From: Spirochaetales bacterium | GTDB taxonomy: Bacteria; Spirochaetota; Spirochaetia; Sphaerochaetales; Sphaerochaetaceae | Assembly (NCBI GenBank): GCA_017470995.1 | Contig: JAFUXI010000085.1 | Location: 1-45,895, forward strand | DNA length: 45,895 nucleotides | Reading direction: 5' to 3' | Part shown: positions 32,893-35,602 of the stretch, one piece after another | Layout of the letters: each line of letters opens with the position of its first letter | Position numbering within the stretch: the stretch's first letter is position 1 | The notes under the pieces: model-generated | What the model saw: only the letters and a program-made list of their open reading frames with translations | Told to the model about the DNA's origin: nothing | The model's database searches: none | Program-made: the position numbers and the translations under genes

Positions 32893-34095
32893 CTAGAATC
32901 TTCCGCCGAAGCCTCCGCGGCCGCCCATTGCGCCTCCGCCGGGACCGCCCATCATCTGACTGATGATGGCGTTGACAGTCTGGCCGTTGACGATGATTGT
33001 GCCTCCGGTGTACTTGGCAGTTCCGTCATAGTCGAAGGATGACTGAGCAGTGATGTCGATCGTTCCTCCGTTGACGTAGAGGTTGCCGTTGGAATCGACT
33101 GCATCGGTATCGCCGGAGCTCATCTTGATCGTGATGTATCCCCCGTTGATCTCGATTGTCACCGCATAGGCTGTGCTCTTCTTGCCGGCGTTGATTCCGT
33201 CATCCGTTGCGCTGATGTTGATGGTTCCGCCGTTGATCTGGACATAAGTGCCCTCGATACCCTCTCTTGCCGTAAGTTTTATCTCACCTCCATCGATCTG
33301 GACCACAGTTGTGGCATGGATGGCATCGTCTGAAGCCGTGATGTTCAGGCTTCCGCCTCCGATGTAGATGTAGCCTACGCTGTTGTCTTCATCATATTCG
33401 GCATGCAGACCGTCCTTCTTGCTCACGATGGTGATGTTTCCGTCGGCGATTCTGATCGAGTCGTTGGCCTCAAGCGCATCAGAAGTGCAGTTGATGCTGA
33501 TTGTTCCTCCGGTGATCTTCAGATCATCCTTGGATGTGATTCCGTTGTCGGTGGAGCTGATGACCAGGCTTCCCTCCCCGTTGAGGACCAAATCGTCCTT
33601 GGAGAAGATGACGGCATCGGTATTGGTATCTCCGTCGCTTGTGAAGGAACCGGTCACCTTGAGGGTGTTCGTCGAATCGGTGGTCGTAATGAACACCTTG
33701 TCCGCACTCTTGACGTAGATGCACGGGAAATCTGTATTGGTGATCGTCAGTCCGTCCAGAACCAGCTGGACCTTGTCCTCGTCTGCAGCATCAACGATGA
33801 CGGTTGTCTCCTTGGCGCTTCCGCTGATGACATAAACACCGGCGCTTGAAATGGTGACATCCTTGCCGCTCTCCACGGTAATGTACTGCGCATCGGTAAG
33901 ATCCGCGCTCTGCTTCAGGTCCCTGTTGGAGAACAGGTCATCCGATGTATAGATTGCAGTACCCGTTGATACCGCATTCGTTGTGGAAGTACTGCCGGAG
34001 ACTGAGGAACCGACCTCGGTGGACCCGGTTGCATTAAGTGTGAACATTACAGCCAGAAGCAGGCTGATTATGATTGTGAATTTCTTTGTCTTCAT
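32893..34095 (-). CDS. Exported beta-helix protein, Cthe_2159/DUF4353-like
   Basis: The 400-residue protein has a hydrophobic leader (residues about 5-22) without a lipobox Cys. After a Ser/Thr-rich linker it consists of repeating units such as DNGITSKDDLKITGGTISI and DDAIHATTVVQIDGGEIKL, one per turn of a right-handed parallel beta-helix. Family members include the polygalacturonate-binding, Ca2+-rich Cthe_2159. The C-terminus is Gly-rich (GGPGGGAMGGRGGFGGRF). GGAGGAAACAAC precedes the ATG at 34095. It forms an operon with DUF4956 and VTC genes, so a role with surface polymer or polyphosphate is plausible but unproven. Confidence 0.85.
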   Translation of the reverse strand: MKTKKFTIIISLLLAVMFTLNATGSTEVGSSVSGSTSTTNAVSTGTAIYTSDDLFSNRDLKQSADLTDAQYITVESGKDVTISSAGVYVISGSAKETTVIVDAADEDKVQLVLDGLTITNTDFPCIYVKSADKVFITTTDSTNTLKVTGSFTSDGDTNTDAVIFSKDDLVLNGEGSLVISSTDNGITSKDDLKITGGTISINCTSDALEANDSIRIADGNITIVSKKDGLHAEYDEDNSVGYIYIGGGSLNITASDDAIHATTVVQIDGGEIKLTAREGIEGTYVQINGGTINISATDDGINAGKKSTAYAVTIEINGGYITIKMSSGDTDAVDSNGNLYVNGGTIDITAQSSFDYDGTAKYTGGTIIVNGQTVNAIISQMMGGPGGGAMGGRGGFGGRF

Positions 34096-34115
34096 GTTGT
34101 TTCCTCCGTTTGTTT

Positions 34116-34775
34116 TCAAATCTGATCTTTTTCTGCGATTCTGCAGCAGCTTACGCTGAGGTTCCCGTTCCTGGCCCTGATTTCATCAAGAAAAGCCTTG
34201 GGAACCATATCCGTTGCAAGGTCGATGTCATATCTGAGTTCATAAAGGGTACCCAGGTTCACGGTCTTCACATCCGTGAGCTTGTAGTTTCTGGTGTACT
34301 TCTTCAACAGATCATCGAAGAGTCCGTCATAATCCATATCCTCGGGAATCTGGATCTTGAGCTTGCGGCCGTTGTTCTCGTTGGAAAAACCAAGCAGTGT
34401 AACTGCAAAGACCACGGCTGCGACGATTGCCAGGAACACGCATGCGGCCACGACATAACCCATTCCGGTTGCAAGACCGAGGGCCATTGCAATGAAGATG
34501 GCTGCGATATCACGCCCCTTTCCTGCTGCAGAGCGGAATCTGACAAGACCGAAGGCTCCTGCGATGGCAACACCTGTTCCGATGTTGCCGTTGACCAGCA
34601 TTATGACGAGCTGTACTGCAATCGGAAGCAGTATCAGCGTAAGTGCAAAACTCGATGTGCTCCTGTTGCGGAAGGAGAACACTGCGGCTGTCAGCAGGCC
34701 CAGGATGACCGAAACCGCTGAACAGATGAGAAAACTGCTGATAGTCAGACTTGTGCCGATAATTGAACTGAACAT
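34116..34775 (-). CDS. DUF4956 membrane protein
   Basis: The 219-residue protein has about four or five membrane segments in its first 130 residues and a soluble tail. The segment GAFGLVRFRSAAGKGRDIAA between helices is the signature of DUF4956. Its function is unknown. It commonly sits beside VTC-domain genes. The ATG at 34775 follows GGAGG, and the gene overlaps the VTC gene by 31 bases, indicating coupled expression. Confidence 0.87.
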   Translation of the reverse strand: MFSSIIGTSLTISSFLICSAVSVILGLLTAAVFSFRNRSTSSFALTLILLPIAVQLVIMLVNGNIGTGVAIAGAFGLVRFRSAAGKGRDIAAIFIAMALGLATGMGYVVAACVFLAIVAAVVFAVTLLGFSNENNGRKLKIQIPEDMDYDGLFDDLLKKYTRNYKLTDVKTVNLGTLYELRYDIDLATDMVPKAFLDEIRARNGNLSVSCCRIAEKDQI

Positions 34776-35482
34776 CTCTTTTCCTCCTTCAGGATGTTGT
34801 TTCTGTAGACCGCCCCGTACTTGGAGAACGAGTATGGTCTGATCTGATATTTGCTGAGCATCTGTGCAACCCACAGAGGCATCGACATGGGATTCTTTAT
34901 CTCCATCAGGACTCCCATTACCGGGACCTGTTCGGAAGCCTGCTTCTCATCGAAGGAGAAGCCGGAGGTCTGGTATCTGATGTTGGTATCGAAGGTGATC
35001 CTAAGCTCGCCTCCGTCGGCGGCGGCGTAGGCTTCCCTGTCGTACGTCAAAAAGGTCCTGTTGACTATGTGATGACGTTTGAGGAAGAAGTCGAACTCCG
35101 AGGTCTCCAGGTCAGTCAGTCCTTCGGGTCTCTCTCCGGAGAAGACGTAGAACATGGCATCCAGGAACGACATCCCGATTCTTCGCTTATAGACGATTCC
35201 GTCGTATTTCTTCTTGATTTCCAGAAAGACTCTGTCGTTTTTGTTCCTGTCCCAGGTCCCGTATGCACGCAGGCGGAGTTTTTCCTTGTAGTCGGCTCCG
35301 TCAACCGAGGTCCTGATCAGATCATAATCCTCAGTATCGAAGTAGATGTTCTTGATGGAGTATCTGGCATGGGCATCCGGAACCATCTTCTCACGGATTG
35401 CCTCTATAACCTGCCTGTACTGCGCTTCGGTGAGAAGGTATTTCTTCTCATAGCGCTGGAATAAGAGTTTTGCCTGCTGCAT
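34745..35482 (-). CDS. VTC-domain polyphosphate polymerase-like protein
   Basis: The 245-residue protein is a triphosphate-tunnel fold like the catalytic domain of yeast Vtc4: RYEKKYLL at the start, the basic strand EKLRLRAYG, then FLEIKKKYDGIVYKRR, and LMEIK plus SKY near the end. All the tunnel Lys, Arg and Glu rows seem present. It has no membrane segment; the DUF4956 partner may anchor it. In Vtc4 such a domain makes polyphosphate from ATP; the bacterial homologues are little studied. The ribosome site lies in a hairpin that precedes the ATG by a T-run. Confidence 0.83.
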   Translation of the reverse strand: MQQAKLLFQRYEKKYLLTEAQYRQVIEAIREKMVPDAHARYSIKNIYFDTEDYDLIRTSVDGADYKEKLRLRAYGTWDRNKNDRVFLEIKKKYDGIVYKRRIGMSFLDAMFYVFSGERPEGLTDLETSEFDFFLKRHHIVNRTFLTYDREAYAAADGGELRITFDTNIRYQTSGFSFDEKQASEQVPVMGVLMEIKNPMSMPLWVAQMLSKYQIRPYSFSKYGAVYRNNILKEEKRCSVQLSAQV

Positions 35483-35533
35483 AAAAAAGTTCCTCCGTCG
35501 TTTGTCGATGACTCAATTTACGACGAAGGAACT
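35483..35533 (-). promoter_or_regulatory. Hairpin with embedded ribosome site upstream of the VTC gene
   Basis: On the minus strand AGTTCCTTCGTCG (35533-35521) pairs with CGACGGAGGAACT (35500-35488), 12 of 13 pairs plus one G-U, with a 20-base loop. TTTTTT and then the ATG of the VTC gene follow. It can be the terminator of the upstream operon (35603-43183). Its right arm carries the GGAGG ribosome site of the VTC gene, so it could also act as an attenuator or a translation switch. Confidence 0.65.
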
Positions 35534-35602
35534 CATAAAGTAATGATTTCTAAAATTTCCACAAATTTCTACATTGTGTGTGGATTGTGTGAAGAACGCC
35601 TG

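Follow-up and report, generated by a model that had tools for sequence, protein, structure and literature searches.

The known bacterial polyphosphate enzymes, PPK1 and PPK2, act intracellularly, and to our knowledge there is no clear route by which polyphosphate reaches the bacterial exterior. Proteins of the VTC family have already been published in company with CotH. In Gram-positive Pel operons, a poly-phosphate polymerase, a DUF4956 membrane protein and CotH are described as accessories (PMC7112168, PMC12345266), and NELoc-2 of Clostridium perfringens has two VTC genes together with CotH (PMC2879425). In Streptococcus intermedius, deletion of the DUF4956 or the CotH homologue (SIR_1592, SIR_1594) alters the Pel level and aggregation (PMC12345266). 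In the open literature, with subscription papers outside the search, we found no description of a triad of VTC, DUF4956 and Cthe_2159, no paper using both the VTC and the DUF4956 terms, and no report of enzymatic activity for bacterial VTC-DUF4956 pairs. DUF4956 is named in three open papers.

Here we describe such a triad in a contig of 45,895 nucleotides (the window) from a Spirochaetales bacterium of the family Sphaerochaetaceae. The reading that we favour, tentatively and at slightly less than an even chance, is that the three genes are one functional unit, in which polyphosphate would be made inside the cell, passed out via DUF4956 and held by an exported beta-helix.

Layout of the locus and its leader

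The triad lies on the minus strand and is transcribed in the order VTC, DUF4956, Cthe_2159. The features are as follows.

34745..35482, minus strand: VTC gene, 245 aa, Vtc4-like triphosphate tunnel protein, predicted polyphosphate polymerase (Pfam PF09359, E 1.9e-37)
34116..34775, minus strand: DUF4956 gene, 219 aa membrane protein with five predicted transmembrane helices and a ferredoxin/ACT-like C-terminal domain (Pfam PF16316, E 1.3e-16)
32893..34095, minus strand: Cthe_2159-family gene, 400 aa exported right-handed beta-helix with an Asp ladder and a Gly-rich C-terminus (Pfam PF14262, E 1.5e-75)
34745..34775, minus strand: overlap of the VTC and DUF4956 frames, 31 bp
35487..35534, minus strand: RNA hairpin predicted by folding, whose 15-bp stem sequesters the VTC ribosome-binding site immediately 5' of the ATG
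35558..35580, minus strand: candidate operator/promoter, a 23-bp inverted repeat CACA-N15-TGTG shared within the genus

All three proteins score well over their Pfam cut-offs (23 bits for VTC; 254 bits against a curated cut-off of 25.8 for Cthe_2159). Thus the gene arrangement given by an earlier sequence-only reading, a Vtc4-like gene overlapping DUF4956 and followed by a secreted Cthe_2159 beta-helix, holds. For DUF4956 the preferred start is the ATG at 34775, which follows GAAGGAGGAAAAGAG, and the Pfam E-value from it is 7.6e-17. A start of Cthe_2159 at the TTG at 34119 was dropped, and the ATG at 34095, with GGAGG just 5', was preferred. The overlap of VTC and DUF4956 suggests translational coupling.

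Upstream on the same strand lie an L-fucose-isomerase-like and a xylulokinase gene, a SelD gene also flanks the triad, and downstream there is a MATE gene, which we excluded from the unit because it is convergent and is not conserved with the module. Neither pel nor other polysaccharide-synthesis genes were found beside the triad, nor was a two-component system found near it. VTC and DUF4956 are each present once in the host genome. Two more copies of Cthe_2159 and a single CotH gene are found outside this contig; the CotH gene sits on contig C76 and does not adjoin the VTC gene of the window.

The leader hairpin of VTC (-26 kcal/mol, z -6.1 against shuffles) was the strongest among 25 gene starts tested in the window, the next having a z of -2.1. 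Two sister species (G127, G133) have different leader sequences at the same place that still pair with the ribosome-binding site and have the loop GACAUCAA in common. That a hairpin over the ribosome site is kept within the genus is suggestive, on a comparison of the three distinct sequences that exist. On this comparison the VTC leader is a candidate RNA switch; an Rfam scan across the locus gave no credible match. A hairpin general to all VTC loci was rejected, as it is strong only in the genus of the window and possibly at one further locus (L116). The inverted repeat CACA-N15-TGTG occurs in four species of the genus at equal distance from VTC, and a search of the whole genome at up to three mismatches gave only one match.

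Linkage of VTC and DUF4956 to exported partners

Tight coupling of the three families had been claimed from the letters of the window, with a survey of co-occurrence as its check, and the surveys bear it out. Across 393 genomes of the phylum, DUF4956 was found within 2.6 kb of VTC at 35 of 36 VTC loci (Fisher p ~3e-32 by genome, uncorrected for relatedness). Every phylum genome with both VTC and Cthe_2159 (8/8) has the pair adjacent, within 6 kb, for which chance would give about 0.4% per genome. The beta-helix gene stands after DUF4956, before VTC or divergently, so that three gene orders occur, and the VTC-linked beta-helices of the phylum are spread over more than one branch of the tree of these proteins. 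That the linkage has come about repeatedly and independently is, as judged from gene order and trees, the best indication that the genes are functionally linked. DUF4956 lacks a VTC neighbour at 26 of 61 phylum loci and therefore has other uses as well. Four phylum carriers of VTC-DUF4956 (L144, L145, L147, L148) additionally encode a conserved secreted protein with KFKKKF at its C-terminus, which may be an outer-membrane barrel, and have genes for small secreted proteins beside the pair.

Beyond the phylum, named public genomes were scanned with the DUF4956 profile, and the best 80 of at least 411 relatives were kept. These loci come mostly from Lachnospiraceae, Oscillospiraceae and other gut Clostridia, with a few from Bacilli and Coriobacteriaceae, one from Treponema and two from archaeal bins. 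VTC is present at 77 of these best 80, and the commonest VTC-DUF4956 junction among them is an 8-bp overlap. Cthe_2159 lies up to 2.2 kb downstream at 54, and at 51 it starts within 200 bp of the DUF4956 end, although some of the loci end at a contig edge. As the association recurs in the host family, in the phylum and in unrelated Clostridia, it is, on this comparative evidence, not due to chance. A histidine kinase and a response regulator were found within 4.5 kb at 39 of the best 80 loci, upstream, downstream or divergent (among others at L044, L045, L066, L080, L086, L035 and L036). By eye, many clostridial leaders carry TTTAAG-type direct repeats before the gene, which could be a two-component binding site.

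In the host family VTC is rare (14 of 139 genomes, some with fragments only). DUF4956 occurs in 12 of the genomes and adjoins VTC in all 12 full loci. The adjacent third gene encodes Cthe_2159 in the window and in G023, G025, G028 and G119, and the secreted kinase CotH in G131, G107, G081 and G128. This swap indicates that VTC-DUF4956 forms a constant core whose extracytoplasmic partner can be exchanged. G127 and G133 carry a beta-helix gene orthologous to that of the window, on another contig than VTC. In G135 (L032, 4378-4890) the first part of VTC is fused to the last residues of Cthe_2159 at the same site, between selD and the isomerase gene. This locus lacks DUF4956 and the adjacent MATE gene as well, and both junctions share the 8 bases CGGAGGCG. 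From these junctions, G135 is apparently a natural deletion that removed the remainder of the unit at once.

What accompanies the pair elsewhere in the family opens another reading, which we consider somewhat unlikely: VTC-DUF4956 would assist the assembly of surface polysaccharides by regulating or energising it. Its product, short polyphosphate or a transferred phosphate, would modify or control a glycan, and CotH or Cthe_2159 would bind or act on that glycan instead of on polyphosphate. Indeed, three of the CotH-VTC-DUF4956 operons (G131, G107, G081; loci L037, L038, L039) are accompanied by genes that look PelF- and PelG-like by eye, and in G084 Wzc- and CpsB-like genes, likewise assigned by eye, stand beside VTC-DUF4956. 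Such Pel operons are also known from streptococci, clostridia and bifidobacteria (PMC7112168). The altered Pel level after deletion of SIR_1592 and SIR_1594 (PMC12345266) points the same way, as does the binding of cellulose and polygalacturonate by Cthe_2159 relatives (PMC6712302). However, the triad of the window has MATE, sugar isomerase and xylulokinase genes as neighbours instead of polysaccharide-synthesis genes, and most triads of gut Clostridia adjoin regulatory rather than glycan genes, as far as an unsystematic annotation of neighbours goes.

The three proteins

The reading as a synthesis and export unit assigns a role to each protein. In the Cthe_2159-family protein, a signal-peptide-like stretch was read at the N-terminus, and phmmer matched it to the solved Clostridium thermocellum structure 4peu at 7.8e-35. 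Asp recurs at the equivalent place of each coil (SDALEA, KDGLHA, SDDAIHA, TDDGINA), and several of these columns are invariant among seven VTC-associated members. Cthe_2159 itself, a distant relative, binds cellulose and polygalacturonate (PMC6712302). Because of the latter activity, it is plausible by analogy that the stacked Asp residues form a Ca2+ ladder for binding of a linear polyanion.

In a quick tree the beta-helix of the window falls within a clostridial clade, where copies from Lachnospiraceae are its closest neighbours, and it is separated from 20 further Cthe_2159 proteins of the host family. This placement suggests that the gene was acquired horizontally. A quick tree also separated 55 VTC-linked from 20 free Cthe_2159 proteins (SH-aLRT 100). 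The idea of a VTC-only subfamily was weakened, since two genomes (G350, G303) have members of the clade but lack VTC, and weakened further by linked Treponema-like copies that fall outside it. The Cthe_2159 and CotH domains, the same families that alternate as third gene, also occur together in anaerobic gut fungi, which is unusual among fungi (PMC6712302).

The AlphaFold model of DUF4956 (pLDDT 81.5) has five membrane-length helices and a ferredoxin-like C-terminal domain. A GA..xVRFR motif at residues 73-81 is invariant in 89 relatives. In the model, VRFR (78-81) lies at the inner end of helix 3 and is a candidate contact for a polyanion; by the positive-inside rule, the Arg/Lys-rich loops 35-41 and 78-90 and the C-domain would be cytoplasmic. 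Searching solved structures with DUF4956 gave chance matches only, and in the fold search only the C-domain was matched, the transmembrane part having no informative match. Kinship with MgtC has been proposed for a streptococcal DUF4956 homologue (PMC12345266). The MgtC Pfam profile gave weak matches in 21 of the 89 proteins (best E 9e-4, below membership level) and no match to the DUF4956 protein of the window. The C-domain superposes on that of Mycobacterium tuberculosis MgtC (2lqj) with Z 8.2, a fold so common that unrelated proteins score equally high. Together, these comparisons suggest the kinship weakly.

This resemblance bears on a further alternative, because MgtC affects phosphate metabolism (PMC12345266). 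VTC could make an ordinary intracellular polyphosphate store, with DUF4956 acting only as sensor or anchor and the beta-helix being a co-regulated adhesin unrelated to the product. PPK1 was not found in the host genome (81% complete), so that another synthase would be useful, and the orthologous beta-helix lies apart from VTC in the two sister-species assemblies. Even so, we regard a plain store as quite unlikely. Ppx/GppA was not found in this 81% complete genome either. This leaves VTC as the only synthase candidate tested and lowers the likelihood of a store in the cytoplasm that is recycled by the usual enzyme, as no Ppx/GppA would be there to reuse it. Moreover, genes for exported proteins came to lie beside the pair repeatedly, and they belong to two unrelated families, a pattern not expected from simple co-regulation.

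The AlphaFold model of VTC (pLDDT 91.5) has yeast Vtc4 (3g3r) as its closest solved structure (Foldseek 9.5e-14; VIA Z 19.4; rmsd 3.0 over 223 residues). By profile alignment, K14, R70, R72, E88, K90 and K99 correspond to K200, R264, R266, E279, K281 and K294 of Vtc4, and R149, R161, E194, K196, S220 and K221 to R361, R373, E426, K428, S457 and K458. The expected tunnel residues are therefore retained, and they are essentially invariant across 83 bacterial VTCs; R70, R72, E194 and K221 are invariant in 83/83. The triple mutation R264A/R266A/E426N has been used to inactivate yeast Vtc4 (PMC9911596). The sole checked tunnel residue missing from the window protein is K455 of Vtc4, which is lost in all 83 relatives and mostly replaced by Ser.

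In hydrolytic tunnel enzymes a second metal is held by three glutamates (PMC4641920). We assigned these positions by the correspondence of RxExK with ExExK and of ExK with ExE, with ygiF (Glu-4 and Glu-162 among the three) as reference. R10 and K196 are basic as in Vtc4, and E12 keeps the hydrolase-type Glu, which makes the protein polymerase-like with one hydrolase-like trait. Given the kept E12 and the lost K455, a triphosphatase or other tunnel enzyme with a different transfer reaction and no polymerase activity is conceivable, the more so as triphosphatases and cyclases also belong to the wider tunnel fold and AtTTM3, with the Vtc4 fold and core residues, makes no polyphosphate (PMC4641920), but it is very unlikely, since Arg and Lys stand at the Glu-4 and Glu-162 positions as in Vtc4 and the profile matches Vtc4/Vtc2/Vtc3 at 1.6e-17 to 3e-10 against E = 1 for ygiF, the top non-VTC match.

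Proposed model and relation to known systems

According to the reading that we favour, VTC on the cytoplasmic side would convert ATP into a linear polyphosphate chain. DUF4956 would anchor VTC at the membrane and let the chain exit, the role of the yeast Vtc1-type helices. Outside the cytoplasm the exported beta-helix, with its probably Ca2+-binding Asp stacks, would grip the polyanion and anchor it at the surface or in a matrix. In relatives the secreted CotH kinase would replace the beta-helix; both of these swapped partners are exported. That neither PPK1 nor Ppx/GppA was found in the 81% complete genome is in keeping with a product dedicated to export. The analysis establishes gene order, conservation, the VTC fold, the tunnel residues and the swapping of partners; catalysis, export through DUF4956 and the binding of Ca2+ and polymer are steps that we infer. 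It counts against the model that deletion of the VTC homologue SIR_1593 of S. intermedius led to no reported aggregation or Pel phenotype (PMC12345266). In its broad form, as a widespread machine that exports polyphosphate via DUF4956 either as a surface or matrix polymer on Ca-loaded beta-helices or as phosphate donor for CotH, the model is unlikely as it stands.

The sequence-only reading had proposed membrane-linked polyphosphate synthesis paired with a Ca2+- or polymer-binding surface protein. Linkage and tunnel residues speak for the first part, whereas polymer binding rests on a distant relative. That picture was also incomplete, as it missed the alternation with CotH, the published Pel-accessory pair and the hairpin that hides the VTC ribosome site.

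The VTC-DUF4956 module is common in gut Clostridia and holds the parts expected of a coupled synthase-exporter with interchangeable exported partners. Three poorly understood families thereby become testable together. The module also suggests why CotH kinases and a polyphosphate polymerase occur together in Pel biofilm operons: if the model is true, exported polyphosphate would supply a secreted kinase that is otherwise without ATP outside the cell.

The Gram-positive Pel operons (PMC7112168; SIR_1594-SIR_1592, PMC12345266) contain the same tightly linked pair with an exported third protein. There, however, the third protein is CotH inside a Pel cluster, whereas the window has Cthe_2159 and no Pel genes near. 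The order CotH-VTC-DUF4956 was seen only at Pel in PMC12345266, while VTC-DUF4956 lies mostly outside Pel in our surveys. In NELoc-2 of C. perfringens (CP4_0460-CP4_0465; PMC2879425) there are two VTC genes, each followed by a membrane-assigned protein of about 220 aa and then CotH; this locus is annotated VTC-tubulin-CotH, and no beta-helix is reported there. The likeness of DUF4956 to MgtC/SapB, in a weak profile match and in the C-domain, stays below the Pfam membership level. With Cthe_2159 of Clostridium thermocellum (4peu) the third protein shares the beta-helix family, and cellulose and pectate binding is known for that namesake only. With the yeast VTC complex (Vtc4 and Vtc1/2/3), the bacterial protein has the tunnel fold and nearly all active-site residues in common, and in both a membrane partner could pass the chain on. 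Unlike the yeast proteins, the 245-aa VTC matches only the VTC domain in Pfam, with neither an SPX nor a Vtc1-type transmembrane domain, and its membrane partner DUF4956 belongs to an unrelated family.
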